Shown piece after piece: positions 6,280 to 53,241 of a stretch of 64,000 nt of DNA. The translations under genes were made by a program, and so were the position numbers. The first letter of the stretch is position 1, and each line of letters starts with the position of its first letter. The stretch comes from Pseudorhodobacter sp. MZDSW-24AT (lineage in GTDB: Bacteria; Pseudomonadota; Alphaproteobacteria; Rhodobacterales; Rhodobacteraceae). Below the pieces are notes generated by a model. The model had not been told where the DNA came from and did not search any database. It saw only the letters and a list, made by a program, of their open reading frames with translations. The DNA lies in NCBI RefSeq assembly GCF_002794355.1, contig NZ_PGOI01000007.1, positions 1-64,000 on the forward strand. Direction: 5' to 3'.

Positions 6280-6290
6280 GGAAAATCCCC

Positions 6291-26541: not shown

Positions 26542-26591
26542 GGCATCATCCAAACCGGGGCCGATCAACGGCCCCTTTCAGGGAGACGACA

Positions 26592-37091: not shown

Positions 37092-38330
37092 CTAGCCTTC
37101 CACCCCGCCTGTCCCGGTCGCCCGGAACCAGCGGATGATGGCAAGCCGCTCTTCCGGCTCCATATAGCTCAGGTTTCCGGGCGGCATCGCATGGCTCACA
37201 CCCGCCTGCAGATAGATCCGCCGCGCCTCATGCGCGATCTGCGCCTCGGTTTCCAGCACCAACCCTTTGGGCGGCCAGACCATGCCCTCCCAATTCGGCT
37301 CGGCCGCATGGCACATGCTGCACCGCCCCTGCACGATACCGACCACATCCTCGAACCCGGGGGCGGCCGCGTGTTGCAAGGCGGTGCCGGTCAGCGCCGC
37401 CTCGGCCTCTGGCACGCTGCGCAGCGGCGCGGTGGACAGCCAGGCGATCACCAGAAACAGGATCGCCGTCACACCCCACGTCCAATGCGGATTGCCCTTG
37501 CGCGCATGCTTGGTGTTGAACCAATGCCGGATCGTCACCCCCATCAGGAACACAAGGCTGGCGATGATCCAGTTGTATTGCGTCGCAAACACCAGCGGAT
37601 AGTGGTTCGACAGCATCAGGAACAGCACCGGCAGCGTCAGATAGTTGTTATGTGTGCTGCGCTGCTTGGCGATCTTGCCATATTTCGCATCCGGCGTGCG
37701 CCCGGCCTTCAGATCCGCCACCACGATGCGCTGGTTCGGCATGATGATCATGAACACATTGGCAGACATGATGGTGGCGGTGAACGCGCCAAGGTGCAAA
37801 AGCGCCGCACGGCCAGAAAACACCTGCGTGTAAAACCACGACATCCCCACCAGCACGGCAAACAGCGCCACCATCAGCACCGTCTGATCGGCATTCACGA
37901 AAACCCGACACAGCGTGTTATAGGCCAGCCAACCAAAGGCAAGCGAGGCCAGCGAAATCGCCACCGCCTGCCACACCTGCAGATCCATCACCGTCGGATC
38001 GATCAGGAACATCTCGGCGCCCAGATAGTAGACCAGCACCAGCATCGCAAAGCCCGAAAGCCATGTGGCATAGCTCTCCCATTTGAACCAAGTCAGATGC
38101 TCGGGCATCATCGCAGGGGCCACCAGATATTTCTGGATGTGGTAGAACCCGCCGCCATGCACCTGCCATTCCTCCCCATGCGCGAGGGGCGGCAGGCTCG
38201 GCGTCTTGCGCAGGCCAAGATCCAGCGCGACGAAATAGAACGAAGACCCGATCCATGCGATGGCGGTGATCACGTGCAACCAGCGCACCCCGATCTCGAC
38301 CCACTCCCACATCACCGCCAGATCATACAT
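37092..38330 (-). CDS. puuD: PuuD, membrane urate hydroxylase with cytochrome c domain
   Basis: 412-residue inner-membrane protein that oxidises urate to 5-hydroxyisourate using the respiratory chain rather than O2 as direct acceptor. The N-terminal DUF989-type domain has about eight helices (VRWLHVITAIAWIGSSFYFVALDLGL, HGGGFYHIQKYLVAP, MIIMPNQRIVVADLKAG, QRSTHNNYLTLPVLFLMLSNHYPLVF). The C-terminal cytochrome c domain carries the haem site CSMCH (about residue 325) and a distal Met in SHAMPPGN. The ATG at 38328-38330 has GGGAGACGG upstream. It is divergent from a LysR gene, which may control it. Confidence 0.93.
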   Translation of the reverse strand: MYDLAVMWEWVEIGVRWLHVITAIAWIGSSFYFVALDLGLRKTPSLPPLAHGEEWQVHGGGFYHIQKYLVAPAMMPEHLTWFKWESYATWLSGFAMLVLVYYLGAEMFLIDPTVMDLQVWQAVAISLASLAFGWLAYNTLCRVFVNADQTVLMVALFAVLVGMSWFYTQVFSGRAALLHLGAFTATIMSANVFMIIMPNQRIVVADLKAGRTPDAKYGKIAKQRSTHNNYLTLPVLFLMLSNHYPLVFATQYNWIIASLVFLMGVTIRHWFNTKHARKGNPHWTWGVTAILFLVIAWLSTAPLRSVPEAEAALTGTALQHAAAPGFEDVVGIVQGRCSMCHAAEPNWEGMVWPPKGLVLETEAQIAHEARRIYLQAGVSHAMPPGNLSYMEPEERLAIIRWFRATGTGGVEG

Positions 38331-38414
38331 CAGCCGTCTCCCTGCTTCTCTTTGGCGCAAACGCTATACCGCCGAAACATCTTCTGTTAATCCAAAGAAA
38401 TGCCGGATCACTTT

Positions 38415-38434
38415 CAATTCGTGCGATATAATTG
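38415..38434. promoter_or_regulatory. Candidate LysR box in the puuD/lysR divergent region
   Basis: CAATT-N10-AATTG forms a dyad 12 nt before the LysR-gene ATG, with an embedded TATAAT at 38427-38432 that could be the regulator's own -10 element. The position suits autoregulation and control of puuD. Confidence 0.35.
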
Positions 38435-38445
38435 GATGTGCCCAG

Positions 38446-39372
38446 ATGTCCTACGTCAACACCATCCGCATGTTTGTCCGTGTCTATGAATTGGGCAGCA
38501 TGAGCGGCGCCGCCCGCGACCAGCGCACCTCGCCCGCGGTGGCTTCGGCGCGAATCTCCGAACTGGAAAAGCATCTCGGCGTGCGCCTGTTCAACCGCAC
38601 CACCCGCAGCCTGCAACCCACCGAAAACGGGCGGATCTTCTACGAAGGCGCGGTGCGCATTCTCGAAGCGATCGAAGATGCCGAAGCCGCGGTGATGGAT
38701 GTCACCCAAAACCCGCGCGGCACCATCTTTGTCGCGGCCCCCCTTGGCATCGGCCGCCGCTTCATTGCCCCGCATGTGCCCGCCTTCAAGGATCTCTACC
38801 CCCTGATCGACGTGCGTCTGCGCCTGTCTGACAGAGGCGTGGATGTGGTCAGCGAAGGCATCGACGTGGCCTTCCATCAGGGCATTCTGGAAGACAGCAC
38901 CTTGAAGGTGCGCCTGATCGCCGATTGTCACCGGGTGCTCTGCGCCGCACCCGCCTATATCGCCCGGCGCGGCATGCCCGAAGACGGCGCGGCACTGGTG
39001 CGGGACCGCCATGATTGCCTGAACCTGCGATACCCCGGCGCCAAGGAGTTTCAATGGACCCTGACAACCCCCGAAGGCCCACGCCGATTTGAAATCTCTG
39101 GCCCCTATGAATCCGATGATGGCGATGTGCTCACGCAATGGGCGCTCAGCGGCCGCGGGATCGTGATGAAGCCGCAATTCGAGGTGGCCGAGCATTTGCG
39201 CTCGGGCGCGCTGGTGCCGGTGGCCACAGCCACGCCGCCGATCTCGGTGCAATTGTCCAGCCTCAGCCAGCACCGCCGCCTGAAAGACCCCAAGGTGCGG
39301 CTTTTCACCGATTACATGGCCGCGCGGATCAAGGAAGAGTTGCGCCGCGCCATCGACGGCCCCTCCCCATAA
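38446..39372 (+). CDS. LysR-family transcriptional regulator
   Basis: 308-residue LysR regulator. N-terminal helix-turn-helix (TIRMFVRVYELGSMSGAARDQRTSPAVASARISELEKHLGVRLFNRTTRSLQPT), then a periplasmic-binding-protein-like effector domain (GTIFVAAPLGIGRRFIAPHVPAFKDLYPLIDVRLRLSD). Its position, divergent from puuD at the edge of the urate-degradation cluster, suggests that it senses a purine catabolite, but this is inference. A -10-like TATAAT lies only 14 nt before the ATG, so the leader would be very short. Confidence 0.88.
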   Translation: MSYVNTIRMFVRVYELGSMSGAARDQRTSPAVASARISELEKHLGVRLFNRTTRSLQPTENGRIFYEGAVRILEAIEDAEAAVMDVTQNPRGTIFVAAPLGIGRRFIAPHVPAFKDLYPLIDVRLRLSDRGVDVVSEGIDVAFHQGILEDSTLKVRLIADCHRVLCAAPAYIARRGMPEDGAALVRDRHDCLNLRYPGAKEFQWTLTTPEGPRRFEISGPYESDDGDVLTQWALSGRGIVMKPQFEVAEHLRSGALVPVATATPPISVQLSSLSQHRRLKDPKVRLFTDYMAARIKEELRRAIDGPSP

Positions 39373-39373
39373 A

Positions 39374-39401
39374 AACGCCCGCGCGGTGCGGCGCGGGCGT
39401 T
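39374..39401. terminator. Bidirectional terminator between lysR gene and DUF2125 gene
   Basis: AACGCCCGCGC pairs with GCGCGGGCGTT around a 6-nt loop. Read on the minus strand it is followed by TTTTTAT, so it terminates the leftward DUF2125 gene most clearly. Confidence 0.75.
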
Positions 39402-39428
39402 CAAAACCTTCAAAGCGTTCAGGTCAAC

Positions 39429-40994: not shown

Positions 40995-41348
40995 TCAGCT
41001 GCCGCGATAGGTCGAATAGGCAAAGGGCGAGATCAGCAAAGGCACATGATAGTGCTGCTCGGCATCCGGCACCCCGAAACGGATCGGAATTTCGTTTAAA
41101 AACAATACGTCACCCGTCGCCTGCCCGGTTTCGCGCAGGTAATCCCCGGCAAAGAACACCAGTTCATAAGTGCCCGCCTTCAGCGCCTCGCCCGACAGAA
41201 GCGGCGCATCCGTGCGCCCGTCGCTGTTGGTCACAACCTCGGCAACTTTCTTGTGCGCATTGCCACTGACCCGGTAAAGCCAGATCTTCACGCCTGCCGC
41301 CGGTTTGCCGCGCGCCGTATCCAGCACATGCGTTGAAAGCCGTCCCAT
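40995..41348 (-). CDS. uraH: UraH, 5-hydroxyisourate hydrolase (transthyretin-like)
   Basis: 117-residue enzyme converting 5-hydroxyisourate, the PuuD product, to OHCU. The three family signatures are present: HVLDTARGKPAAGVKIWL near the N-terminus, a central RTDAPLL region, and the diagnostic C-terminal YRGS following HYHVPLLISPFAYST. No signal peptide, so cytoplasmic. It is divergent from the puuE-uraD fusion gene. Confidence 0.95.
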   Translation of the reverse strand: MGRLSTHVLDTARGKPAAGVKIWLYRVSGNAHKKVAEVVTNSDGRTDAPLLSGEALKAGTYELVFFAGDYLRETGQATGDVLFLNEIPIRFGVPDAEQHYHVPLLISPFAYSTYRGS

Positions 41349-41431
41349 CGCCCGCTCCTTGCTCTTGGTCGCCTGCCATCTCAGCACGAATGGCCCGCCG
41401 ATGCGACCACCGCAACGCAGAATATGTCTTT

Positions 41432-41466
41432 CTGTAATTTATTGATAAAACAGCCCGAAATTACAG
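41432..41466. promoter_or_regulatory. Perfect 9-bp dyad upstream of puuE-uraD (candidate operator)
   Basis: CTGTAATTT (41432-41440) and AAATTACAG (41458-41466) are perfectly complementary with a 17-nt spacer. The dyad lies in the uraH/puuE divergent region, 38 nt before the preferred GTG start, so it could control both directions. Confidence 0.5.
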
Positions 41467-41504
41467 GCTATCTTGCGGCACCGCTTGAAAGTGAGGGTTC
41501 GCAG

Positions 41505-42920
41505 GTGAACAGATACCCCCGAGATTTCCGTGGCCACGGCCCGGACGCCCCCGATGCACAATGGCCCGGCGGCGCAAAGATCGCCGTCTCGCTCGTGCTC
41601 AATTACGAAGAAGGGGGCGAGAACAACCTGCTGCACGGCGATGCGCAATCCGAAGCCTTCCTGTCCGACATCGCCGGGGCCGCGCCTTGGCCCAACATGC
41701 GCCACTGGAACATGGAGTCGATCTATGACTACGGCGCGCGCGCCGGGTTCTGGCGGCTGCACCGGCTCTTTACCGGGCGCAACCTGCCCGTCACCGTCTA
41801 TGGCGTCACCTCGGCCCTTGCCCGCAACCCCGAACAGGTCGCGGCCATGCAGACCGCCGGTTGGGAAATCGCCAGCCACGGGCTGAAATGGGTCGATCAC
41901 CGTGACATGCCCGAAGAGGAGGAACGCGCCCAGATCGCCGAATCCTTCCGCCTGCACCAAGAGGTGACAGGCGCGGCGCCTTTGGGCTGGTATACTGGCC
42001 GCTGTTCCATGAACACGGTGCGCCTGACCGCCGAAACCGGTCAACTCGCGTGGATTTCCGACACCTATGACGACGACCTTCCCTATTGGAAAGAGGTGGG
42101 GGACCATGACCAACTGGTCATCCCCTACACGCTCGAAGCCAATGACATGCGCTTTGCCACCGCGCCGGGCTACATCACCGGCGAGCAATTCTACCAATAT
42201 CTGAAAGACAGCTTCGACGTGCTCTATGCCGAAGGCATGGCAGGCCGCGCCAAGATGTTTTCCATCGGGCTGCACAACCGCCTGATCGGGCGCCCGGGCA
42301 AGATGGCGGGCCTCCAGCGCTTTCTCGACTATGCGCAAGGCCATGAAGGCGTCTGGTTCCCGCGCCGCATCGACATCGCCCGTCATTGGGCGCAGACGCA
42401 TCCGCACAAACGCATCGAGCGTCCCAGCCAGATGGACCGCGCCCGCTTTGTCGCGCGCTTCGGCAGCATCTTTGAACACTCGCCCTTCATCGCCGAACGC
42501 GCCCATGATCTTGAACTCGGCCCCGCCCATGACAGCGCCACCGGCCTGCACAATGCGCTGGCCCGCATGTTCCGCAGCGCCTCGCCCGACGAGCGGCTGG
42601 GGGTCCTGCGCGCGCACCCGGATCTGGCCGGCAAGCTCGCCGCCGCCAAGCGGCTGACGCCCGAGTCCACCGCCGAGCAGGCCAGCGCCGCGCTGGACGC
42701 CCTCACCGATGCCGAGCGCGACACCTTCCAGCGGCTCAACCGCGACTATGTGGCCAAGCACGGCTTTCCCTTCATCATCGCGGTGCGTGACAACACGAAA
42801 GACAGCATCCTTGCCGCCTTTACGGCCCGTATCGCCAATGACACCGCGACCGAATTCGCCACCGCCTGTGCGCAGGTGGAACGCATTGCCGCCCTCCGGC
42901 TGAAGGACATGCTGCCATGA
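41505..42920 (+). CDS. PuuE-UraD fusion: allantoinase plus OHCU decarboxylase
   Basis: 471-residue bifunctional protein. Residues about 1-305 are PuuE-type (polysaccharide-deacetylase-fold) allantoinase (NRYPRDFRGHGPDAPDAQWP, VSLVLNYEEGGENN, WEIASHGLKWVDH, GWYTGRCSMNTVRL). Residues about 310-471 are OHCU decarboxylase (FGSIFEHSPFIAERA, LRAHPDLAGKLA, FQRLNRDYVAKHGFPFIIAV). It thus makes allantoin from OHCU and opens it to allantoate. I prefer the GTG at 41505, because PuuE proteins begin near 'RYPRD', GAGGG lies just upstream, and the in-frame ATG at 41424 would put a perfect dyad inside the coding region and has no ribosome binding site. It overlaps the next gene by 4 nt. Confidence 0.93.
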   Translation: MNRYPRDFRGHGPDAPDAQWPGGAKIAVSLVLNYEEGGENNLLHGDAQSEAFLSDIAGAAPWPNMRHWNMESIYDYGARAGFWRLHRLFTGRNLPVTVYGVTSALARNPEQVAAMQTAGWEIASHGLKWVDHRDMPEEEERAQIAESFRLHQEVTGAAPLGWYTGRCSMNTVRLTAETGQLAWISDTYDDDLPYWKEVGDHDQLVIPYTLEANDMRFATAPGYITGEQFYQYLKDSFDVLYAEGMAGRAKMFSIGLHNRLIGRPGKMAGLQRFLDYAQGHEGVWFPRRIDIARHWAQTHPHKRIERPSQMDRARFVARFGSIFEHSPFIAERAHDLELGPAHDSATGLHNALARMFRSASPDERLGVLRAHPDLAGKLAAAKRLTPESTAEQASAALDALTDAERDTFQRLNRDYVAKHGFPFIIAVRDNTKDSILAAFTARIANDTATEFATACAQVERIAALRLKDMLP

Positions 42921-43759
42921 CCGCGTATTACACCCCCCAAGGCGGTCTGCCGCCGCAAACCCAGTTGATGACCCAGCGCGCCGTCTTTACCTCGGCCTAT
43001 GCCGTCATTCCCAAGGGCTGCTTTTCCGACATCGTCACCAGCTTCCTGCCCGGCTGGCGGCAGACGCGGCTTTGGCTGATCGCCCGCCCGATGTCAGGCT
43101 TTTCCGAAACCTTCAGCCAATATGTGATGGAAGTCGCCCCCGGCGGCGGCTCCGACGCGCCAGATCCGGAAACCGGGGCCGAACACTGGCTGTTCTTCAC
43201 CGACGGTCTGGCCACGCTGACGATCGATGGCGAAGGCCATGAGATGGAAAGCGGCAGCTACGCCTATATCCCGGCAGGCCAGCGCTGGACCCTTCTGGCC
43301 GAAGGCAAAGGCCCGGCCCGCTTTCACTGGCTGCGCAAGCTCTACGAACCCGCCCCCGGCGTGGATCGGCCAGACCCGATCATCATCAACGAACGCGACG
43401 TGCCGCTTTCCCTGATGCCCGACACCAACGGCGCATGGGGCACCACCCGCTTCGTCGACCCGAACGATCTGCGCCATGATGCGCATGTGAACATCGTGAC
43501 CTTCCAGCCCGGCGGCTCCATCCCCTTCGAAGAAACCCATGTGATGGAGCACGGGCTCTATGTCTTGCAGGGCAAGGCGGTCTACAAGCTCAATCAGGAT
43601 TGGGTCGAGGTCGAAGCCGGGGATTTCATGTGGCTGCGCGCCTACTGCCCGCAGGCCTGCTATGCCGCCGGTCCCGGACCTTTCCGCTACCTGCTGTATA
43701 AGGATGTGAATCGCCACGCAAAACTGCGCGGGCCCGGGGCATTTGGGGGGATGCGCTGA
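42917..43759 (+). CDS. (S)-ureidoglycine aminohydrolase, double-cupin
   Basis: 280-residue bicupin of the YlbA/UGHY family that converts (S)-ureidoglycine to (S)-ureidoglycolate with release of ammonia. Family stretches are YYTPQGGLPPQ, RAVFTSAYAVIPKGCFSDIVTSFLPGW and the C-terminal metal cupin IPFEETHVMEHGLYVLQGKAVYKLNQDWVEVEAGDFMWLRAYCPQACYA. The start overlaps the puuE-uraD stop by 4 nt (ATGA). Its presence implies an allantoate amidohydrolase supplying ureidoglycine, but none is encoded in the window. Confidence 0.92.
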   Translation: MTAYYTPQGGLPPQTQLMTQRAVFTSAYAVIPKGCFSDIVTSFLPGWRQTRLWLIARPMSGFSETFSQYVMEVAPGGGSDAPDPETGAEHWLFFTDGLATLTIDGEGHEMESGSYAYIPAGQRWTLLAEGKGPARFHWLRKLYEPAPGVDRPDPIIINERDVPLSLMPDTNGAWGTTRFVDPNDLRHDAHVNIVTFQPGGSIPFEETHVMEHGLYVLQGKAVYKLNQDWVEVEAGDFMWLRAYCPQACYAAGPGPFRYLLYKDVNRHAKLRGPGAFGGMR

Positions 43760-43832
43760 CCCGCGCGCCCCACACCTTCCTCCCCTCTCGCCCGCAAGAT
43801 GCAAGGCCCCACCACAACGGAGCGTTCAGCCC

Positions 43833-44309
43833 ATGCCAGTGATCCACCCCCGGCCTCTGACCTCGGCAGATTTCGCCCCCTTCGGCGAGGTGCTCGAGGC
43901 CTCTGGCGCGTTCCGCCTCATCAATGCGGGCCTGTGCCAGCGCCACCATGATCTTGCCGCGCTCGATTTCGGGCCAGACGGGCAGGCGGGGATCTCTGTC
44001 TTCAGCGCCGTCCCGCGCGCCCTGCCCTACAGCTTCGATCTGATCGAACGCCATCCCGAAGGCTCGCAGGCCTTCCTGCCAATGACCCAGCATCCGTTTC
44101 TGGTGATCGTGGCGCAGTCCCCGCAAGATGCACCCATCGCCTTCCTGACGAATGGCACCCAAGGCATCAACCTGCGGCGCGGGGTCTGGCATGGCGTCCT
44201 CACACCGCTTCACGCGCCCGGCCTTTTCGCGGTCGTCGACCGGATCGGCAGCACGCCCAATCTCGAAGAGCATCGCTACACCGAAAGCTGGACGGTCCTG
44301 CCGCTCTGA
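43833..44309 (+). CDS. allA: AllA, ureidoglycolate lyase
   Basis: 158-residue lyase that splits (S)-ureidoglycolate into glyoxylate and urea, the last step of the pathway. Recognisable are PLTSADFAPFGEVLE, SVFSAVPRALPYSFDLIERHPEGSQAFLPM and NLRRGVWHGVLTPL, the core of the family. It lies 73 nt after the ureidoglycine aminohydrolase gene, likely in the same transcript. The glyoxylate formed could feed the bhc cycle encoded at 48.8-53.2 kb. Confidence 0.93.
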   Translation: MPVIHPRPLTSADFAPFGEVLEASGAFRLINAGLCQRHHDLAALDFGPDGQAGISVFSAVPRALPYSFDLIERHPEGSQAFLPMTQHPFLVIVAQSPQDAPIAFLTNGTQGINLRRGVWHGVLTPLHAPGLFAVVDRIGSTPNLEEHRYTESWTVLPL

Positions 44310-44327
44310 CCGCTGCGGCACCCCGGC

Positions 44328-45869
44328 TCAGCGGGATCGCAGCACCCGCCGCAGGATCTTGCCGCTGGCCGATTTCGGGATCGCATCGATGAACTCGATC
44401 CGGACGGGCTGCTTGTAACTGGCCAGATGGCCGCGCGCATGGGCAAGAATCTCTTCGGGCCGCGCTGCGCCTTGCGGGACCACGAAAGCCACCGGCACCT
44501 CTCCCGCATCCGCATCCGGCACGCCGATGACCGCTGCATCCAGCACGGCAGAACAGCTCAGCAGCACCGCCTCCACCTCGGCCGGGGCGACCTGAAAGCC
44601 CTTGACCTTGATCAACTCTTTCAGCCGGTCGCGGATATACAGCTGGCCTTCCGCGTCAAAGGCGGCAATGTCGCCCGTATGCAGCCAGCCTTCGGCATCA
44701 ATGGTGCGCGCCGTCGCTTCAGGATTGTTCAGATAGCCCAGCATCACCTGTGGCCCCTTGATGCACAGCTCTCCTTCCTCTCCCACCGGCAGCGCCGCGC
44801 CGGTTTCGGGGTGAATCACCTTGCACAGGGTATTGGGCACCGTCACCCCCACCGCCCCCGGCTTGGCATGGGCTTCATTCGAGAAATGGGAAATCGGGCT
44901 CAATTCCGTCATGCCATAGCCTTGCATGGTCAGCGCCGTGAGCCGCGCCGAACAGGCCTCCGAAAGCTCGGCCCCCAGCGGCGCCGCCGCCGAAACCAGC
45001 ACCTCTAGGCTTGAAAGGTCATAGTCCGCCACCAAGGGATGCTTGGCCATCGCCAGCACCACCGGCGGCACCGCCATCACCATGCGCACCTTGTGCTGCT
45101 GCACATGCCCCAGAAAGGCGGCCAGATCAAAGCGGGGCATCGTCACCAGCCCCGCCCCGGCCACCAGATGCATGTTCATCAGAACATTCATCCCGTAGAT
45201 GTGGAAGAACGGCAAAAAGGCCACCGTGCGCTCGCCGGGCACCACACGGATCACCGCGCGCGCCTGATCGACATTCACCACCAGATTGCGATGGCTCAGC
45301 ATCACCCCTTTCGGCAGCCCGGTGGTGCCGCTGGAATAGGGCAGCACCACGACATGACGCGCCAGATCCACCGGAACCTGCGCCGCCAAGGGCGCGCCCA
45401 TCAGATCCGCCAGAACCGGGTGCCCCTCTGCCCCGTCGATCACCACGATCCGGCGCACCGCCGTGCCCTCCACCGCCGCCCGCGCCTCGGGCAGGAAGGC
45501 CGCCACCGTCACCAGCAGCGTCGCCCCGGCATCCGTCAGCTGATGCCGGATCTCCGGCGCGGTATAGGTGGGGTTCAGGGTGGTGATCGTGCCCCCCGCA
45601 TAGGCGACCGCGTGAAACACCACCGCATATTCCGGCATGTTCGGCGCCATCAGCGCCACCACCTGCCCCGCGCCAAAGCCCTGCGCCACCAGCCCTCCGG
45701 CAAGGCGGCGGATCTGCGCCATCAAGTCTGCGCCGGTCAGGCTGCGGCCCGTCGGCCCATCGATCAGAACCACCCGATCCGGCTCGGCGGACAGGCCGTC
45801 GAACAGGCAGTCGGTGATGGAAACCTCCCGCAGCGGCACATCGGCCAAAGGACTGGTGATCACTGTCAT
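44328..45869 (-). CDS. Acyl-CoA ligase (4-coumarate:CoA ligase-like, ANL family)
   Basis: 513-residue adenylate-forming enzyme with the P-loop motif YSSGTTGLPKGVMLSH, the GYGMTE motif, the STGD-like hinge GWLHTGDIAAFDAEGQLYIRDR and the catalytic Lys motif PKSASGKILRR. It activates a carboxylic acid to its CoA thioester. The closest look is 4CL/fatty acyl class, but the substrate cannot be assigned. The start at 45869 is supported by AGGAGGAA 8 nt upstream. It is convergent with allA (18-nt gap) and not obviously part of the purine pathway. Confidence 0.85.
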   Translation of the reverse strand: MTVITSPLADVPLREVSITDCLFDGLSAEPDRVVLIDGPTGRSLTGADLMAQIRRLAGGLVAQGFGAGQVVALMAPNMPEYAVVFHAVAYAGGTITTLNPTYTAPEIRHQLTDAGATLLVTVAAFLPEARAAVEGTAVRRIVVIDGAEGHPVLADLMGAPLAAQVPVDLARHVVVLPYSSGTTGLPKGVMLSHRNLVVNVDQARAVIRVVPGERTVAFLPFFHIYGMNVLMNMHLVAGAGLVTMPRFDLAAFLGHVQQHKVRMVMAVPPVVLAMAKHPLVADYDLSSLEVLVSAAAPLGAELSEACSARLTALTMQGYGMTELSPISHFSNEAHAKPGAVGVTVPNTLCKVIHPETGAALPVGEEGELCIKGPQVMLGYLNNPEATARTIDAEGWLHTGDIAAFDAEGQLYIRDRLKELIKVKGFQVAPAEVEAVLLSCSAVLDAAVIGVPDADAGEVPVAFVVPQGAARPEEILAHARGHLASYKQPVRIEFIDAIPKSASGKILRRVLRSR

Positions 45870-45945
45870 GGCAAATTCCTCCTCTGCCAAAGCCTAGCCC
45901 AGCGCGCTTGGGGGGCAATGCGCCAAAGGTCGGGGATGCCAGCCC

Positions 45946-46383
45946 TTACAGCTTGAGATCATACGTCACCCATGGGGTGCGCAGGGCCATCTGGTCATAC
46001 AAACCACGCGCCCGGTAATTCGTCTCGGCGGTGATCCAGCGGATCACGCTCCAGCCTCTCCGCCGTCCTTCCTCGGCCACGCCCGCAATCAGGGCCTCGG
46101 CAGCCCCACCGCCCCGCGCGCCCGGATGCACGAACAGATCGTCCAGAAAGCCCCCGGTGCTCGCCGCCAGTGGCCGCGCGAAGCCGCGGAAATGCGCCAG
46201 CCCCACCAGCCTGTCCCCATCCACCGCCACCAAAGCCTCCACCTCATGCGCCGGATCAGTGATCCAGCCCCAAACCCGGGCGCGCATCTCCTCGGTCTGC
46301 TCCACCTGATAAAAGGCCGCATATCCCGCATAAAGCTCTGCCCATGCCGCAAAATCCGAAGGCCGTGGTGTCCGTGTCTGCAT
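45946..46383 (-). CDS. GNAT-family N-acetyltransferase
   Basis: 145-residue acetyltransferase. The acetyl-CoA region is DDLFVHPGARGGGAAEALIAGVAEEGRRRGWSVIRWITAETNYRARGLYDQM. The substrate is unknown. The start at 46383 (MQTRTPRPSDFAAWAELY) is chosen for GGAGA 7 nt upstream; the longer frame from 46458 runs through the divergent promoter region of the next gene. Confidence 0.82.
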   Translation of the reverse strand: MQTRTPRPSDFAAWAELYAGYAAFYQVEQTEEMRARVWGWITDPAHEVEALVAVDGDRLVGLAHFRGFARPLAASTGGFLDDLFVHPGARGGGAAEALIAGVAEEGRRRGWSVIRWITAETNYRARGLYDQMALRTPWVTYDLKL

Positions 46384-46452
46384 CTGTGGTCTCCTTTTGC
46401 CTTCGCCCATCCTCGCACACCCATCGCGCCACGCGAAAGTCCGAGAAAGCAC

Positions 46453-46470
46453 TGTCATTTTTTCCTGACA
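46453..46470. promoter_or_regulatory. PpsR/CrtJ-type site TGTC-N10-GACA upstream of the bciB-like gene
   Basis: TGTC at 46453-46456 and GACA at 46467-46470 match the full TGTcN10gACA consensus of the photosynthesis repressor PpsR/CrtJ (TGT-N12-ACA). It is 32 nt before the ATG of a gene homologous to a bacteriochlorophyll enzyme. A second CTGACA follows at 46480-46485. Confidence 0.55.
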
Positions 46471-46501
46471 CCCCTATCCTGACAGCATCGCAGGAGACGC
46501 C

Positions 46502-47737
46502 ATGTTCGATCACACCCGCCCCGGCCCCCAAACCCCCGCGCTGCCCGGCGGCCCCCGCTCCGGGCTTTGCACCGATTGCGGCGTCTCGCGGCTTGGCGAC
46601 GGTCGGGCCTGCGGACGGGCCTGCCAGTTCATCGCGCCGGATTACCCTGCGCTCGAACGCAACCTGCATGGCCGGACCGCACAGCCCGACACCGATGAAG
46701 CCTTCTTCGGCGTCATCCACAGCATGCAGCGCGCGCGGCTCATTGCCCCCGCGCCCGGGGCGCAATGGACCGGCATCACCACCACCCTCGCCGCAGCCTT
46801 GCTGCAACACGGCCTTGTCGATGCCGTGCTGACCGTGCTCCCCGACCCGACAGACCGCTGGAAACCGCTTCCGGCCATCATCACCGATCCCGCCGACATG
46901 GCCCGCGCGCGCGGCATGCGCATGGGCTGGGCGCCGACGCTGGCGCTGCTGGAACCCGCCCGCGCCGCCGGATATCGGCGCATCGCCTTCATCGGCATCC
47001 CCTGCCAGACCTATGCCCTGCGCGCGCTCGAAGCCGAGCTGAACCTTGACGCCCTCTATGTCATCGGCACGCCTTGCTCCGACAACACCACCACCGAAAA
47101 CTTCCACCGCTTCCTGACCCTGCTCGACACCGCCCCCGACCGGATCAGCTATCTGGAATTCCGCGCCGATTTCCGGGTCGAACTGCGCTTTGATGACGGG
47201 CGCAAGCCAAGGTTCATTCCGTTTTTGCAACTGCCGATCAGCCGCTTGCCCGCGGATTTCTTCCCCACCACCTGCAAGACCTGCGTCGATTACACCAATC
47301 GCCTCTCCGATATCACGGTGGGCTATATGGGCGGCGACGGGGATCAATGGATCATCGCCCGCAACGCGCGCGGCGCCCGGCTGTTGTCGCTGATCGCGCC
47401 GCTGCTGCACACCGCGCCCCTCACCACGTCAGGCGCGCGCGGCGCCGCCGTCAAAGGCTTTGCCGCCAACACCGCCCGCGCCGCAGGCGGCCTTCCGCTG
47501 CGCCGCATGCCCAACTGGCTCCGCCCGCTGGTGGGCGTGATCCAGCGCCATTTCGGCCCCAAAGGGCTGGAATTCGCCCGCGCCCGGGTCGAGATGAAAG
47601 CCGTCGAAACCGTGCTCCACCTCCGCCGCAGCCATCCCGCGCGGCTCAAGAACATGGTCCCCGCCCATGTCTGGGCGCTTGCCGCCCGCTACGGGCTCGG
47701 CCCCGCCCCGGGCGAGACGCGCGATCCCCCCCGGTAA
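46502..47737 (+). CDS. bciB: BciB-like ferredoxin-dependent 8-vinyl reductase (FrhB/coenzyme F420 hydrogenase beta family)
   Basis: 411-residue Fe-S flavoprotein. The N-terminal Cys cluster (GLCTDCGVSRLGDGRACGRACQFI) and the order of motifs (PALERNLHGR, FFGVIHSMQRAR, GAQWTGI, RWKPLPAIITDPADMARARG, YVIGTPCSDN, CKTCVDYTNRLSDITVGYMGG, GPKGLEFARARVEM, LHLRRSHPARLKNMVP) follow cyanobacterial BciB/HCAR closely. BciB reduces the C8-vinyl group of (bacterio)chlorophyllide precursors. No other bch gene is in the window, so the pathway assignment rests on the protein pattern and the PpsR-type site upstream. Alternative: another FrhB-family reductase. Confidence 0.75.
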   Translation: MFDHTRPGPQTPALPGGPRSGLCTDCGVSRLGDGRACGRACQFIAPDYPALERNLHGRTAQPDTDEAFFGVIHSMQRARLIAPAPGAQWTGITTTLAAALLQHGLVDAVLTVLPDPTDRWKPLPAIITDPADMARARGMRMGWAPTLALLEPARAAGYRRIAFIGIPCQTYALRALEAELNLDALYVIGTPCSDNTTTENFHRFLTLLDTAPDRISYLEFRADFRVELRFDDGRKPRFIPFLQLPISRLPADFFPTTCKTCVDYTNRLSDITVGYMGGDGDQWIIARNARGARLLSLIAPLLHTAPLTTSGARGAAVKGFAANTARAAGGLPLRRMPNWLRPLVGVIQRHFGPKGLEFARARVEMKAVETVLHLRRSHPARLKNMVPAHVWALAARYGLGPAPGETRDPPR

Positions 47738-47749
47738 ACTCCCAGGCGG

Positions 47750-48724
47750 TCACGCCATCCGCAGCGCCACATCCAGCATGCGGTTCGAAAATCCCCATTC
47801 ATTGTCGTACCACCCAAACACGCGCAGCAGGCCGCCCGCCGTCACCCGCGTTTCCGGCGTGGCCATCACGATGCTCTCTGGCCGCGCCCGCAGATCGGTC
47901 GACACCAGCGCCCGGTCGGTGACACCAATCACCCCGCCCGCCGCATGAAAGGCGGCGTTCACCGCCTCCACCGTCACCGGCCGCTCGGTCAGCACCGCCA
48001 GATCCACGCAAGACACGCTGGCCACCGGCACCCGCACCGCCGAACCTTCGATCCGCCCGGCAATCTCGGGCAGCACCTGATCCAGCAGACGCGAGGCGCT
48101 GGTGGTGGTGGGCACCATCGACAGCGCCGCCGCCCGGCTGCGCGCGTAATCGGCGGCGGGCGCGTCCACGGTCGGCTGGCTCCCCGTGTAGCAATGGATG
48201 GTCGTCATGGACCCGGTCACCACCCCCCATTCGCGCTGGATCAACCGCGCCAAAGGCGCCAGCGCATTGGTCGTGCAGGACGCATTCGACACGATCGCCT
48301 GCTCTGCCAGCATCGCGTCATTGGCCCCCAGAACCAGCGTCACCTCCGCCGCCTGCGACGGCCCCGAGATCAGCACCCGGCGCGCCCCCGCCCGCAGGCC
48401 CCGCGCCGCAACCTCGCGCGCATCCGCCCGACCGGTGCATTCCATCACCACATCCACGCCGCGCAGATCCAGCGCCGAAAGATCGGCCGCGCGGTGCAAG
48501 GGAATCGCCCGACCATTCACCACCAAGGCATCGCGCTCCAGCGCGACACTGCCCCGCCATGGCCCGAACACGCTGTCATATTCAAACAGATGCGCGCACA
48601 TTTCGGGCGCGGCGATGTCATTGATCCCCACCACCTCCAAACCGTGCCAGCGCGCAGGCTCGGCGGCCCAAGCCCGCAGAACCGACCGCCCGATCCGGCC
48701 AAATCCATTGATGAAAACCCGCAT
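47750..48724 (-). CDS. Glyceraldehyde-3-phosphate dehydrogenase paralogue downstream of the bhc operon
   Basis: 324-residue GAPDH with the start MRVFINGFGRIGRSVLRAW, catalytic Cys in NASCTTNALAPL, TTIHCYTGSQPTVD and the end FGWYDNEWGFSNRMLDVAL. It belongs to the GAPDH/erythrose-4-phosphate dehydrogenase superfamily and differs clearly from the arsenate-linked GAPDH at 9205-10215. It lies 86 nt downstream of bhcD on the same strand, so may be co-transcribed. A gluconeogenic role with oxaloacetate from the bhc cycle is possible but is inference. Confidence 0.88.
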   Translation of the reverse strand: MRVFINGFGRIGRSVLRAWAAEPARWHGLEVVGINDIAAPEMCAHLFEYDSVFGPWRGSVALERDALVVNGRAIPLHRAADLSALDLRGVDVVMECTGRADAREVAARGLRAGARRVLISGPSQAAEVTLVLGANDAMLAEQAIVSNASCTTNALAPLARLIQREWGVVTGSMTTIHCYTGSQPTVDAPAADYARSRAAALSMVPTTTSASRLLDQVLPEIAGRIEGSAVRVPVASVSCVDLAVLTERPVTVEAVNAAFHAAGGVIGVTDRALVSTDLRARPESIVMATPETRVTAGGLLRVFGWYDNEWGFSNRMLDVALRMA

Positions 48725-48810
48725 TCACTCCCCCTGGATCGGCCGCAGGATCATCACGCGGCCGCGCAAGGTGCAAGCGCCGCTTTGTCACCCGAACAAG
48801 GTTTCCCCCG

Positions 48811-49770
48811 TCACACCTCGACGACGATCCCCTGTCCGCGTTCTTCCGCCCGGCGCACCGCCATCGCAGCCACCGCCAGATCCTGCAAGCCGACGCCCGT
48901 GCCATCAAACAGCGTGATCTCCTCGGCCCCCTGCCGTCCGGGATGCTGGCCGGTCACGACATCGCCCAAAGGCACGATCTGCGCCGGGCTCAGCAGCCCC
49001 TGCGCCACCGCATGCTGGGCCTCGCCAATCGACACCGACTGCGCCAGCTCATCGGTGAACACGCGGGCCCGCGCCAGCAGGTCCGGCGCCACCTCCTGCT
49101 TGCCCTTGGTATCGGTTCCCATGCAGGCCAGATGCGTCCCGGCCGAGACATGCGCCCCCAGCAGGCACGCGGCGGGCGAGGAGGTGATCGTCACGATCAC
49201 ATCCGCCTCGCGCATCCGGTCCAGCGGCACCGCCTCGAAAGGCAAGCCCAGTTCCGCGGCAACCGCGCCCAGCCGGGTCAGCATCTCGGGATGCAGGTTC
49301 CACGCGATCACCCGTTCAAAGCGGCGCACCCGCGCCGCCGCGCGCAGCTGAAACGCCGCCTGATGCCCTGCCCCCACCATGCCCAGCACCCGCGCCTCTG
49401 GCCGTGCCAAGCGGTCGATCGAAATGGCACTGGCCGCCGCCGTGCGCAGCGCGGTCAGCAACCCGCCCCCCACCATGGCAACGGGCCGCCCGGTCTCGGG
49501 GTCGAACAGGAACACGGTGGACTGATGGTTGATGATGCCGCGCGAGGCATTGCCGGGAAAGTAGCCCCCGGCCTTCACCCCCAATTGCCCGCCCGCCCGG
49601 TCCAGCCCGGATTTAAAGCCGTATTGCCGCCCTTCGCCCAAGGCTTCGCGCACCACATCAAAGTTGCGCGCCTCCCCGCGCGACATCGCGGCGAAGACCG
49701 CCTCGATCGCGGCAAAGGCATCCTCGGGCGAAACAAGCCCCGCAATCAGCGCTTCCGGCACGATTCTCAT
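48811..49770 (-). CDS. bhcD: BhcD, iminosuccinate reductase (ornithine cyclodeaminase/mu-crystallin fold)
   Basis: 319-residue NAD(P)-dependent imine reductase that turns iminosuccinate into aspartate, closing the beta-hydroxyaspartate cycle. The family stretches are FKSGLDRAGGQLGVKAGGYFPGN, NHQSTVFLFDPETGRPVAMVGGGLLTALRTAAASAISIDRLARP and the Rossmann motif VLGMVGAGHQAAFQLRA. The functional call relies on the gene order bhcA-B-C-D next to an IclR gene, as in Paracoccus denitrificans. It is 78 nt after bhcC. Confidence 0.92.
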   Translation of the reverse strand: MRIVPEALIAGLVSPEDAFAAIEAVFAAMSRGEARNFDVVREALGEGRQYGFKSGLDRAGGQLGVKAGGYFPGNASRGIINHQSTVFLFDPETGRPVAMVGGGLLTALRTAAASAISIDRLARPEARVLGMVGAGHQAAFQLRAAARVRRFERVIAWNLHPEMLTRLGAVAAELGLPFEAVPLDRMREADVIVTITSSPAACLLGAHVSAGTHLACMGTDTKGKQEVAPDLLARARVFTDELAQSVSIGEAQHAVAQGLLSPAQIVPLGDVVTGQHPGRQGAEEITLFDGTGVGLQDLAVAAMAVRRAEERGQGIVVEV

Positions 49771-49848
49771 GGCCACACCCGTGTCATGACGTTTGCCATA
49801 CGCGCGCCATACGCAGGCCCGACGCACATCATACGCGCAATATTCATC

Positions 49849-51012
49849 TCAAAAGGCCTTTCCGCGCGCCGAAACCGGCCAGACCACCTCCACCTTGCCG
49901 CCCCGCACACCGACATACCAATCATGAACGTTGCAGGTGGGGTCACAATGCCCCGGCACCAGCCGCAGCTTGTCATTCACCTTCAAAACCCCCGCCGGAT
50001 CTTCAACCACGCCATGTTCGTCACTGCATTTGACGTATTTCACATCGGTGCGACCAAAGATCACCGGCAGCCCAGAATCCACCGATTGCGCCTTCAAACC
50101 GGCATCGACAATCGCCTTGTCCGCCTTGGCATGGCTCATGACCGAGGTCAGGATGAACAGCGCATTTTCCCATTCGCCTTGGTCAATCCGCTGGCCGTCC
50201 TTGTCCAGAATGCGGCCATAATCGGCATCCATAAAGGCATAGCTGCCGCATTGCAGCTCGTTGTAAACCCCTGATGTGCTTTCAAAATAATAGCTGCCGG
50301 TGCCCCCGCCGCCCACGATGTCGCAGGCCAGCCCCACGGCCTTCAACGCCTCCACCGCGTCCTTCACCTGGCCCACCGCCAGATCGATCTTGGCCTTGCG
50401 GTCCGCATAACTTTCCATGTGCTGCATCGCGCCCTGATAGGCCTGCAACCCAGCGAATTTCAGCCCCGGCGCCGCCTCGATCGCACGCGCAATCGCCACC
50501 ACCTCCGGCGTGGTCTTCACCCCGCAGCGCCCGGCGCCGCAATCGATCTCGACCAGACATTCGATGGTGGTCCCATGGCGCAGCGCGGCCGCCGACAGAT
50601 CGGCCACATTCTCCGGCATATCCACGCAAACGATTGTTCTTGCACCCAGTTTCGGCAACCGCGCCAGCCGGTCGATCTTCGCCGGATCTCGCACTTGATT
50701 GCTGACCAGCACATCCCTGATGCCGCCGCGCGCAAAGACCTCGGCCTCGCTGACCTTCTGGCAGCACACGCCGACCGACCCGCCCAAGCGCTCTTGCAAC
50801 AGCGCCACATCCACCGATTTGTGCATCTTGCCATGCACCCGGTGCCGCATGCCATGCTCCCGGGCATAATCACCCATCTTCTTGATATTGCGCTCCAAAG
50901 CGTCAAGGTCCAGCACAAGGCACGGCGTCTGGATATCGGCCTCGTCCATCCCCGGCAGGGCCGGGATGTCATATCCAACCTCAAGGCCTTCAAACTCTGT
51001 GTGCTTGTTCAT
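49849..51012 (-). CDS. bhcC: BhcC, beta-hydroxyaspartate aldolase (D-threonine aldolase family)
   Basis: 387-residue PLP enzyme that condenses glycine and glyoxylate to (2R,3S)-beta-hydroxyaspartate. The alanine-racemase-type barrel has the PLP-Lys region RHRVHGKMHKSVDVALLQ (about residues 55-75); metal ligands are in the C-terminal VPGHCDPTCNVHDWYVGVRGG. DSD1/D-threonine aldolase fold. It sits 4 nt after bhcB, which supports tight coupling. The full-length frame begins MNKHTEFEGLEVGYDIPALP. Confidence 0.94.
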   Translation of the reverse strand: MNKHTEFEGLEVGYDIPALPGMDEADIQTPCLVLDLDALERNIKKMGDYAREHGMRHRVHGKMHKSVDVALLQERLGGSVGVCCQKVSEAEVFARGGIRDVLVSNQVRDPAKIDRLARLPKLGARTIVCVDMPENVADLSAAALRHGTTIECLVEIDCGAGRCGVKTTPEVVAIARAIEAAPGLKFAGLQAYQGAMQHMESYADRKAKIDLAVGQVKDAVEALKAVGLACDIVGGGGTGSYYFESTSGVYNELQCGSYAFMDADYGRILDKDGQRIDQGEWENALFILTSVMSHAKADKAIVDAGLKAQSVDSGLPVIFGRTDVKYVKCSDEHGVVEDPAGVLKVNDKLRLVPGHCDPTCNVHDWYVGVRGGKVEVVWPVSARGKAF

Positions 51013-51016
51013 GATG

Positions 51017-52000
51017 TCACCCTTTCATCCAAGGCAAAGTATCCAGATCGACGTTTCCCCCCGTGATGATGACGCCAACGCGCCGCCCTCGGAAAACATC
51101 CTTGTTTTTCAGGATGGTGGCCAATGGCACTGCACAGCTTGGCTCCATCACAATCTTCATCCGCTTCCATGTCAGCTTCATCGCCGCGACGATCTCCTCT
51201 TCCGTGGCGGTGAAGATATTTGCGACATGGTTGGAAACGAAATGCCACGTCAAATCCTTCAGCGGCACCTTCAACCCGTCGGCGACCGTGTCGGGCGCAT
51301 CATCGGCAATGATGCGCCCCGCCTTGAAACTGCGATAGGCGTCATCGGCATTCAACGGCTCGGCGGCATAAACATCCACGCCGGGGACCAGCGCACTCAT
51401 CGTCAGGCAGGTGCCGGAAATCATCCCCCCACCCCCAATCGGTGCGACCACACAGTCCAGATCCTCAACCTGTTCAAGCAGTTCGCGCGAACAGGTCGCC
51501 TGCCCGGCGATCACCCGCGGGTCATTATAGGGGTGCACAAATTCTCCTCCGCTCTGCGCCTGCACCTGCGCAAACACCGCTTCACGACTGCTGGTCGACG
51601 GTTCGCATTCGGTGATCACTCCGCCATAGCCGCGCACCGCATCCTTCTTGGCCTGCGGTGCCGTGCGCGGCATCACCACATTGCACGGGATCCCCCGCCG
51701 CCCCGCCGCATAGGACAGCGACAGCGCATGGTTCCCGCTCGAATGGGTGCACACACCCAACCGGGCCCGGTCTTCGGTCAAACCAAACACCGCATTACAG
51801 GCCCCACGCACCTTAAACGCTCCTGCCTTCTGGAAGTTCTCGCATTTGAAGAACAACTCCGCCCCGACCAAGTCATTCAAATAGCTCGAAGTCAGCACCG
51901 GCGTGCGATGGATATGCGGACGGATACGGTCATGCGCCGCGGTCACGTCGGCAAAGGTGGGGATATACATGGCGGGCATGTCTTTCATCGGTTGATCCAT
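51017..52000 (-). CDS. bhcB: BhcB, beta-hydroxyaspartate dehydratase (threonine/serine dehydratase family)
   Basis: 327-residue PLP enzyme that dehydrates beta-hydroxyaspartate to iminosuccinate. Visible are the PLP-Lys motif FKCENFQKAGAFKVRGACNAVFG, the Ser loop THSSGNHALSLSYAA, VVMPRTAPQAKKDAV, the Gly-rich PLP-phosphate site PIGGGGMISGTC and the end VGVIITGGNVDLDTLPW. Start uncertain among ATGs at 52000, 51988, 51979 and 51970; 52000 is chosen with weak GGACAGAGA upstream. A GC hairpin (52027-52044) separates it from bhcA. Confidence 0.93.
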   Translation of the reverse strand: MDQPMKDMPAMYIPTFADVTAAHDRIRPHIHRTPVLTSSYLNDLVGAELFFKCENFQKAGAFKVRGACNAVFGLTEDRARLGVCTHSSGNHALSLSYAAGRRGIPCNVVMPRTAPQAKKDAVRGYGGVITECEPSTSSREAVFAQVQAQSGGEFVHPYNDPRVIAGQATCSRELLEQVEDLDCVVAPIGGGGMISGTCLTMSALVPGVDVYAAEPLNADDAYRSFKAGRIIADDAPDTVADGLKVPLKDLTWHFVSNHVANIFTATEEEIVAAMKLTWKRMKIVMEPSCAVPLATILKNKDVFRGRRVGVIITGGNVDLDTLPWMKG

Positions 52001-52026
52001 TCTCTGTCCAAAAGCACCCCGGGAGT

Positions 52027-52044
52027 CCGGGGGATGGCCCCCGG
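52027..52044 (-). repeat. GC hairpin between bhcA and bhcB, part of a dispersed repeat
   Basis: CCGGGGG-ATGG-CCCCCGG in the 50-nt bhcA-bhcB gap. The same hairpin with one changed loop base occurs at 29887-29904. Without a T-tract it more likely affects mRNA stability or partial attenuation within the operon. Confidence 0.6.
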
Positions 52045-52050
52045 TCCGCC

Positions 52051-53241
52051 TCACTCTGCGGCGATCGCCAACGCGCCGGTCGAGCCGCGATAATACTCCT
52101 GCGCGGCAGCCACACCGGAGCCGAGTTTGATGGGCCACCCCAGATCCGCCATGCACATCTCGGCCGTGGCGAGACCGGACAGGACCATTACATCGGAAAG
52201 CATCCCCAGATGGCCGATCCGGAACACCTTGCCCGCGACCTCGCCGAGCCCCACGCCAAAGGCGACGCCGTATTTCTCTGCTGCGAGCTTGACCAGATCG
52301 GTGCCGTTACAGCCATCAGGCACCAGCACGGCGGTCACGGTATCGGAAAAAAGCACGGGTGCGGCGGCGCAGGGCCGCATCCCCCAAGCGGCAACGGCGC
52401 GGCGCACACCTTCGGCCAAGCGATGATGGCGGGCGTAGACAGCGTCCAGACCCTCATCCTCCAACATCTCCACCGCCCGCGCGAGCCCGGCGATCAGGCC
52501 GACAGCGGGCGTGTAAGGATAGCCACCGGCGGCATAGCTTTTCAGCATGTCCCGGAAATCAAAGAATGTGCGGAGGAGAGTGGCGGTCTGCATCGTCGCC
52601 AAGGCCTTCGGGCTCACGCCAAGGATCGCCAGACCGGCGGGGAGCATGAAGCCTTTCTGGCTGCCCGCCACCGCAATATCGACACCCCAAGCCGCCATAT
52701 CAAAAGGCATCGACCCGATGGAGGACACCCCGTCGACCAGCAGCAAGGCCGGGTGTTTGGCTGCGTCGAGGGCGCGGCGCAGGCCGCCGATATCAGAGCG
52801 GACGCCGGTCGCGGTTTCGTTGTGGGTGGCGAGCACGGCCTTGATCTGGCCGCCGGGATCGGCCCGCAGTGCGGCCTCGATCCGCTGAAGGGGCACGCCT
52901 TCACCCCATGGGGTCTCGAGGATCTCGACGTTCAGGCCGTGGCGCTGGCACAGGTCGATCCAGCGGTGGCTGAACATGCCGTGGCGCGCGGCAAGGACGG
53001 TGTCGCCGGGGGAGAGGGTGTTGGTGATGGCGGCCTCCCAGCCGCCGGTGCCGGTGGAGGGCAGCAGGATCACCTCACCCTCGGCCATCCCCAGCACCCG
53101 CCGCACGCCAGCGACCGCAGGCTGGAACAGCCGGGCGAAGGCGGGGGAGCGGTGGTCGAGGGTGGGGATGTCGCAGGCCTTGCGGATGGGATCGGGGATA
53201 TTGGTCGGGCCGGGGATGAAAACGGGGTTCTGGGCATACAT
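52051..53241 (-). CDS. bhcA: BhcA, aspartate-glyoxylate aminotransferase
   Basis: 396-residue PLP aminotransferase (class V, serine-glyoxylate aminotransferase-like) that aminates glyoxylate to glycine using aspartate, giving oxaloacetate. Features are FIPGPTNIPDPIRKACDIPTLDHRSPAF, the STGTGGWEAAITNTLSPGD loop, VDGVSSIGSMPFDMAAWGVDIAVAGSQKGFMLP with the PLP Lys, and the end [18 protein letters not shown]. It is first in the leftward bhcABCD operon and divergent from bhcR. By sequence alone it might be called a serine-glyoxylate aminotransferase; the operon fixes the role. Confidence 0.94.
   Translation of the reverse strand: MYAQNPVFIPGPTNIPDPIRKACDIPTLDHRSPAFARLFQPAVAGVRRVLGMAEGEVILLPSTGTGGWEAAITNTLSPGDTVLAARHGMFSHRWIDLCQRHGLNVEILETPWGEGVPLQRIEAALRADPGGQIKAVLATHNETATGVRSDIGGLRRALDAAKHPALLLVDGVSSIGSMPFDMAAWGVDIAVAGSQKGFMLPAGLAILGVSPKALATMQTATLLRTFFDFRDMLKSYAAGGYPYTPAVGLIAGLARAVEMLEDEGLDAVYARHHRLAEGVRRAVAAWGMRPCAAAPVLFSDTVTAVLVPDGCNGTDLVKLAAEKYGVAFGVGLGEVAGKVFRIGHLGMLSDVMVLSGLATAEMCMADLGWPIKLGSGVAAAQEYYRGSTGALAIAAE

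Follow-up and report, generated by a model that had tools for sequence, protein, structure and literature searches.

Pseudorhodobacter sp. MZDSW-24AT carries, on a 64,000-nucleotide stretch of its genome (contig NZ_PGOI01000007.1, positions 1 to 64,000; hereafter the window), genes for the breakdown of purines and, close to them, the bhcABCD operon of the β-hydroxyaspartate (bhc) cycle with its regulator gene, bhcR. The cycle has so far been known as a carbon-saving route for algal glycolate. The locus therefore raises the question, put forward in an earlier reading of the sequence alone (the sequence-only reading), whether the cycle also assimilates the glyoxylate in which purine breakdown ends, i.e., whether purines are a source of carbon as well as nitrogen. 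Our answer is that the locus is probably a purine-breakdown island with a carbon-assimilating end, a reading to which we give a probability of roughly 0.7. PuuD, UraH and a PuuE-UraD fusion would oxidise urate and open it to allantoate, which AllE and AllA would convert via ureidoglycolate to urea and glyoxylate. Glyoxylate would then be both a substrate of BhcA and BhcC and the signal read by BhcR, so that the cycle would be turned on by purine breakdown with no operator in common, and BhcABCD would turn two glyoxylates into oxaloacetate without loss of carbon.

Most of the gene assignments behind this question were borne out by profile searches with curated cut-offs, made on the window genes from 14.4 to 56.7 kb (Table 1; source genome 3.86 Mb, 26 contigs). 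The four bhc products, encoded on the same strand (48811-53241) in a predicted operon, all exceeded their NCBIfam equivalog cut-offs, as did BhcR. Of the genes that the sequence-only reading had placed at 37.1-44.3 kb, uraH, puuE-uraD and the ureidoglycine aminohydrolase gene (allE) were likewise matched above cut-off, and puuD was matched by PF06181. Urate oxidase, 5-hydroxyisourate hydrolase, 2-oxo-4-hydroxy-4-carboxy-5-ureidoimidazoline (OHCU) decarboxylase and allantoinase of the ureide pathway are all recognised. All eight models matching AllA are models of ureidoglycolate lyase, but none is matched at its cut-off; allA homologues adjoin puuE in relatives. The distance of 4.5 kb between allA and bhcD (44309 to 48811) was also correct, as was the presence of xdhABC and a BMP-type importer at 18-27.7 kb, the Xdh models being matched above cut-off and the importer genes recognised.

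We surveyed 198 genomes of the family, from 197 genera, for each gene. Matches to puuE were nearly universal (186 genomes at E 1e-60, 180 of them over the cut-off for PuuE), and BhcC and BhcB were over cut-off in 84 and 86 genomes, respectively. A correlation between presence of bhc and of puuE was rejected: bhcB was over cut-off in 4 of the 12 puuE-lacking and 82 of the 186 puuE-bearing genomes (Fisher p 0.56). Only position carries information. All counts of distance within 15 kb take only genomes in which both genes are among the matches listed. On this basis 27 of 83 genomes have puuE no more than 15 kb from bhcC; 20 further bhcC genomes with no puuE among the matches listed, some of them without puuE, fall outside the 83. 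Control pairs gave 1 of 31 (bhcC-parC), 0 of 86 (bhcC-glcD-like), 0 of 51 (puuE-parC) and 1 of 68 (puuE-glcD-like). The ParC matches, in 67 of the 198 genomes at E 1e-215, are limited by the E threshold, and the window's own genome is not among them; GlcD was matched in 178 of the 198 at E 1e-120 but in none over the curated cut-off, hence "glcD-like". Random placement would give about 0.65 in 83 (a 30-kb span in a genome of 3.86 Mb, with contig ends and kinship disregarded). Among the 27 linked genomes, 25 have puuE downstream of bhcC, on the opposite strand and 1.0 to 7.4 kb off; in four of the 27 (G025, G146, G097, G072) only a standalone bhcC is involved. The parC gene adjoins bhcR in the window, in a same-genus relative (G135) and in several close kin; with 1 of 31 it was rejected as a conserved neighbour.

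A second count was made on locus DNA instead of distance rows. From the 105 bhcC rows outside the window's genome, 100 loci of up to 20 kb were annotated with the window proteins (the rows of G022, G091, G126, G054 and G034 and partial rows of G159, G030 and G166 were left out), and 88 of them contain at least one of bhcA, bhcB and bhcD. In 72 of these the DNA extends for 9.9 kb or more on the side of bhcD, and 28 of the 72 have puuE or allE. The corresponding figure was 31 of 61 with enough flank in the titled set of 80 loci, which includes metagenome-assembled genomes and overlaps the set of 100, so that the counts are not summed. The proposal that the two clusters keep company across relatives thus held as regards position, with recurrent linkage, and failed as regards presence, bhc being independent of puuE. 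The neighbourhood is more than chance, and the clusters are co-conserved in that linkage recurs on chromosome-size contigs, on plasmids and in several layouts; within the family it recurs, in a minority of bhc loci, and a few signs of it come from outside.

Annotated plasmids include 535 records with a relative of BhcC, 119 of them at 60% identity or more. In 10 of 15 plasmid bhc regions viewed, which were chosen by hand, purine genes stand beside bhc (Rhodobacteraceae SC52, three Leisingera, three Pseudosulfitobacter, Alloyangia pacifica, Sulfitobacter sp. OXR-159 and Marinovum algicola). What was viewed of the Pseudosulfitobacter plasmids has allE, guaD and a permease gene as its purine genes; guaD, encoding guanine deaminase, precedes allE there and in the Alloyangia plasmid. 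On the Pseudosulfitobacter sp. DSM 107133 plasmid, bhcC and bhcD are separated by a gene for an NCS1 nucleobase symporter (L245, 9358-10758). Leisingera sp. S132, Sulfitobacter sp. OXR-159 and Marinovum have a gene for an AmiS/UreI urea channel after bhcD, which fits the production of urea by AllA. Genes for molybdate uptake precede allE in Leisingera plasmids (modABC in two, modC in a third). A class-wide search of 385 genomes gave 48 with a match at E 1e-90, of which 30 short loci were read. In one genome of another family (G541; L269, 3676-4045), uraH begins 10 nt past the bhcD stop (TIGR02962 124.2 bits, cut-off 87.45); the other loci from outside the family had no purine gene within about 1.5 kb on each side.

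A search of all 198 genomes of the family, the window's own among them, gave no match to glyoxylate carboligase at E 1e-150, with a positive E. coli control. Given this negative, net assimilation of purine-derived glyoxylate would most obviously proceed through the bhc cycle.

How might purine breakdown be coupled to the cycle? As in other bhc systems, the window has a divergent bhcR and a candidate palindrome in the bhcA-bhcR gap. The palindrome TGAAA-N5-TTTCA is common to 136 non-redundant bhcA-bhcR gaps and exact in 74, as against at most 2 in any of ten shuffled gap sets. We scanned 180 loci (the titled and untitled sets, partly overlapping; 159 with a bhcA match) for this palindrome, allowing one mismatch. 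There were 127 sites upstream of bhcA (122 loci), 72 upstream of bhcR (71 loci) and 57 elsewhere, with none listed upstream of allE, allA, uraH or puuD. The sites in the window, at 31409, 53305 and 55763, are all outside the purine genes. Of eight sites counted upstream of puuE, seven are inside the uraH match, 244-345 nt off, leaving one candidate. A BhcR regulon shared with the purine genes was therefore rejected, as sites are essentially absent from purine promoters. According to passages of PMC11323563, BhcR of Paracoccus denitrificans activates bhc in vivo with glyoxylate and is needed for growth on glyoxylate, and glyoxylate lowers its DNA binding in vitro. We infer that purines would be coupled to bhc via the metabolite glyoxylate, and not via a shared operator; purine-derived glyoxylate would then reach a level effective on BhcR in the cell, and the cycle would be used on purines. 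An orphan bhcR-like gene was seen near puuE-allE in one locus (L234, original strand 5923-6717); its product is 60% identical to BhcR and scores 349.6 bits against the cut-off of 350, and its genome has no row in the BhcC search.

Several observations weigh against our reading of the locus. In the window the purine and bhc sets are convergent, do not share an operon and stand 4.5 kb apart, and in the family 44 of the 72 bhc loci with enough flank are unlinked, i.e., linkage is the minority state, while bhcB presence does not follow puuE. The sole puuE-promoter candidate for BhcR (L130, one mismatch, 38 nt before the puuE match) represents one of 62 loci with puuE. Five of the 15 plasmid regions (Paracoccus sp. 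Arc7-R13, Agrobacterium tumefaciens CFBP7129, Sinorhizobium meliloti Rm41, Tateyamaria and Rhizorhabdus) had no purine gene in the viewed stretch, and two of these have genes near bhc for an α-hydroxy acid oxidase (CFBP7129) or glcF (Rm41). The nearly universal glcD-like gene is a likely second source of glyoxylate. Malate synthase G, encoded in the window's own genome and matched above its cut-off in 166 of the 198, could remove glyoxylate instead; a passage of PMC12694930 argues that malate synthase needs acetyl-CoA, which allantoin does not supply. Malate synthase G was also seen within about 1.2 kb of allE in three genomes (G002:C1, G079:C55 and G153:C19), all with bhcB.

These glcD-like genes, malate synthase G and the glcF gene near bhc on the Sinorhizobium plasmid speak for another explanation, namely that bhc serves mainly algal glycolate and the purine genes serve nitrogen supply, the small yield of glyoxylate being merely cleared by bhc, malate synthase or transamination, so that the neighbourhood would reflect detoxification. 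So does the retention of the purine cluster, with varying completeness, in all of the bhc-lacking loci viewed, i.e., 40 puuE loci from the 65 genomes without a BhcC match above about 350 bits and with puuE among the matches listed. We nevertheless consider this explanation unlikely, since the best glcD-like gene was within 15 kb of bhcC in none of the genomes compared and puuE was so in about a third of them. Also in favour of the carbon reading, 9 of the 40 loci without bhc have allE and allA facing each other and no bhc gene separating them. Glycine cleavage genes were seen near the purine cluster in some of the 40 (L203, L204, L219, L224, L232 and L241; gcvH cluster in six loci, gcvT in four, gcvP in three; one gcvH and one gcvT confirmed by profile, gcvP recognised by eye), and are perhaps an alternative sink in genomes without bhc. 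The purine pathway would thus seem to end at an exchangeable position, which different sinks for glyoxylate or glycine can occupy.

The arrangement and history of the linked loci bear on whether the neighbourhood has any function at all. In 17 of the 88 bhc loci puuE is convergent to bhcD and allE is beyond bhcR, so that the bhc operon is nested in the purine cluster. In five, as in the window, the bhcD side carries puuE as well as allE; the others have puuE without visible allE (5), allE beyond bhcR only (3) or neither (58). In 2 of the 80 titled loci (L159, L166) purine genes are beyond bhcR instead. By clustering of open reading frames (ORFs), the only families in at least 10 of the 100 bhcC loci are the bhc genes, puuE, puuD, allE, uraH, allA, an accessory glyceraldehyde-3-phosphate dehydrogenase (GAPDH; 22 loci), a permease after allA (22) and a LysR regulator (19); clusters 13, 14 and 16 (9, 7 and 5 loci) were judged from their position to be antisense ORFs. 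The permease representative is above cut-off for an NCS2 model and scores 403 bits with the xanthine permease model, against 414. A BhcC tree of 101 rows was made by a quick method and has 34 of its 98 inner branches open. For the 73 scored loci it requires 20 changes of the linked/unlinked label. When linked loci are set against all others, 21 changes are required, of which well-supported branches force at least 8. Shuffled labels averaged 26.6 changes, and 3 of 500 were as low, i.e., the label is only mildly clustered. Similar layouts point to an old linkage that was often lost, and deviating layouts to some re-formation; the tree does not separate the two. A neutral neighbourhood, in which the genes are not used jointly and the linkage is owed to inherited order or to passive transfer on shared islands or plasmids, would explain the many loci of the nested layout as a matter of descent, but is very improbable given the repeated changes on the tree, the several layouts that keep the linkage, the narrow set of recurrent neighbours, and the purine or nucleobase-transport genes that some genomes have within the bhc operon or immediately after it. 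The carbon link between purines and bhc that was first proposed is thus strengthened by recurrent linkage and by the lack of a carboligase match, and weakened by the minority of loci concerned and by the near-absence of BhcR-type sites from purine promoters.

A purine island of this kind must also cleave allantoate, and no dedicated gene for this was recognised among the window genes scanned. In the own genome the best match to the AllC model scored 220 bits against a cut-off of 597.75, and the allantoicase model gave no match, its controls being equally silent. The allE product, however, scores 473.3 bits (cut-off 350) with NF040771, named "bifunctional allantoicase/(S)-ureidoglycine aminohydrolase", a cut-off exceeded by matches in 174 of the 198 family genomes; no paper behind the bifunctional name was found in literature listings. 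The allE product possibly acts also on allantoate, and the allantoate step would then be covered within the locus.

In four loci (L107, L114, L120 and L122) a BhcC homologue, 54-73% identical to that of the window, is encoded directly behind allE. In L107, L120 and L122 the gene, read from its candidate start, shares 4 nt with the end of allE (L107 has a second ATG 18 nt on), and in L114 the two genes are 27 nt apart. A fifth case, L270, has the order allE-bhcC-GAPDH, with 20-29 nt between allE and bhcC and 663 bits with the BhcC model (cut-off 690). None of the five contains bhcA, bhcB or bhcD in the locus DNA, and a BhcB search at E 1e-120, which matched 87 genomes, gave no match in the genomes of the first four (G146, the source of L114, is 83% complete). 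Of 168 residues that are near-invariant in 87 canonical BhcC sequences, 160 are kept in L107, 146 in L114, 136 in L120 and 127 in L122. All four keep the motifs HGKMH and PGHCDPT, to which we ascribe roles in pyridoxal phosphate and metal binding, presumably as in the D-threonine aldolase fold. A tentative and rather doubtful idea is that a BhcC-type aldolase belongs to purine breakdown in its own right, capturing ureide-derived glyoxylate together with glycine as hydroxyaspartate, which would be finished by an unlinked dehydratase or used as a nitrogen and carbon sink; the full cycle would perhaps have been assembled around this purine-operon aldolase, glycolate use being a later reuse. As a general rule it is contradicted by 8 of the 12 standalone BhcC loci in the 198-genome set, which have no purine gene in the locus DNA. 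In another locus (L094, 13310-16695, oriented), a gene for a BhcC homologue with 79% identity stands between two genes assigned by eye, one for a flavin adenine dinucleotide-dependent oxidoreductase and one for a dehydrogenase of LDH2 type; the three may form a unit for the breakdown of hydroxyaspartate.

The other genes of the window are included in Table 1. The LysR regulator between puuD and uraH is an addition to the gene list of the sequence-only reading. The importer matches NCBIfam B6-importer models below cut-off and no model settles its substrate, which from gene position may be purine-related. Further additions, between allA and bhcD, are genes for an acyl-CoA ligase, an FrhB/FdhB-type protein (F420 hydrogenase β family, 46502-47737), which was also seen in Pseudotabrizicola relatives, and the accessory GAPDH. 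The latter, with its catalytic motif intact, was seen beside bhcD or purine genes, with or without the other partner, in the window and in L249, L253 and L270, and it is also present in 7 of the 40 bhc-lacking loci.

Table 1. Features of the purine and bhc locus in the window, with the profile matches that identify them (bits and curated cut-offs)
Feature	Coordinates	Strand	Evidence
xdhA, xanthine dehydrogenase small subunit	18147..19550	+	TIGR02963 597.9 bits, cut-off 467
xdhB, xanthine dehydrogenase molybdopterin subunit	19547..21991	+	TIGR02965 1192.1 bits, cut-off 849.5
xdhC maturation protein	21783..22919 (ORF; domain from ~22040)	+	TIGR02964 256 bits, cut-off 161.6
BMP-type ABC importer, four genes: ATPase, two permeases, binding protein	22916..27683	+	profile matches
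puuD, membrane urate oxidase (urate hydroxylase)	37092..38360	-	PF06181 449 bits
LysR-type regulator between puuD and uraH	38260..39372 (ORF; helix-turn-helix from ~38460)	+	PF00126, PF03466
uraH, 5-hydroxyisourate hydrolase	40995..41387	-	TIGR02962 131.9 bits, cut-off 87.45
puuE-uraD fusion, allantoinase + OHCU decarboxylase	41424..42920	+	TIGR03212 503.4 bits, cut-off 424.6; TIGR03164 202.1 bits, cut-off 96.25
allE, (S)-ureidoglycine aminohydrolase	42917..43759	+	NF008373 506.4 bits, cut-off 445
allA, ureidoglycolate lyase (to glyoxylate + urea)	43743..44309	+	NF002952 228.9 bits, below cut-off 260
accessory GAPDH, adjoins bhcD	47750..48724	-	TIGR01534 338.4 bits, below cut-off 367.2; motif ASCTTNAL intact
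bhcD, iminosuccinate reductase	48811..49827	-	NF045643 527.3 bits, cut-off 500
bhcC, 3-hydroxy-D-aspartate aldolase	49849..51012	-	NF045642 764.4 bits, cut-off 690; PDB 6qkb 700 bits
bhcB, β-hydroxyaspartate dehydratase	51017..52000 (inside ORF 51017-52156)	-	NF045641 594.2 bits, cut-off 550
bhcA, aspartate-glyoxylate aminotransferase	52051..53241	-	NF045640 712.8 bits, cut-off 650
BhcR-type palindrome TGAAANNNNNTTTCA, one mismatch	53305..53319	.	in bhcA-bhcR gap
bhcR, IclR-type glyoxylate-responsive regulator	53397..54212	+	NF045644 402.5 bits, cut-off 350

If our reading is correct, marine and freshwater Rhodobacteraceae would gain both carbon and nitrogen from nucleic-acid waste, plasmids would spread the use of purine carbon and nitrogen as one package, and bhc genes would be misleading as markers of glycolate use in metagenomes. 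Among the papers listed in our literature searches, none joins bhc genes with a purine gene cluster, and a prior mention in the 2019 Nature paper on the cycle is possible. The word purine does not occur in PMC11166783, and the mentions of allantoin found there lie in the reference list; PMC11323563 comes closest, with a sentence that names purines and allantoin only as a possible source of glyoxylate. One of the closest known systems is the β-hydroxyaspartate cycle of Paracoccus denitrificans, as described in PMC11323563, with the same four enzymes, for which the window is above the curated cut-offs, and a divergent IclR-type regulator. That cycle is described there for glycolate and glyoxylate, whereas the bhc operon of the window lies among purine genes.

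A second comparison concerns regulation, since the window BhcR also matches the AllR model, with 155 bits. In E. coli, AllR represses both allantoin and glyoxylate genes. Unlike this joint control of allantoin and glyoxylate genes, the BhcR-type sites found here cluster at bhc promoters. AllR is, according to the part of PMC11323563 consulted, an IclR-family protein like BhcR, with DNA binding that responds to glyoxylate and a tie to allantoin use.

SAR11 bacteria, which we take to be marine Alphaproteobacteria, also degrade purines. Passages of PMC11698098 on their purine catabolism name glyoxylate as the carbon product and name no route for its assimilation, and neither hydroxyaspartate nor malate synthase occurs in the main text. 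A further close system is the PA1498-PA1502 gcl cluster of Pseudomonas aeruginosa, which the passages of PMC12694930 describe as allantoin-inducible and as a dedicated glyoxylate assimilation system fed by allantoin, mutants in the cluster failing to grow on allantoin as sole carbon source. P. aeruginosa uses glyoxylate carboligase and the glycerate route (PMC12694930), whereas the 198 genomes searched in the window's family gave no carboligase match; by analogy, the bhc cycle would be the counterpart here of the P. aeruginosa gcl cluster.

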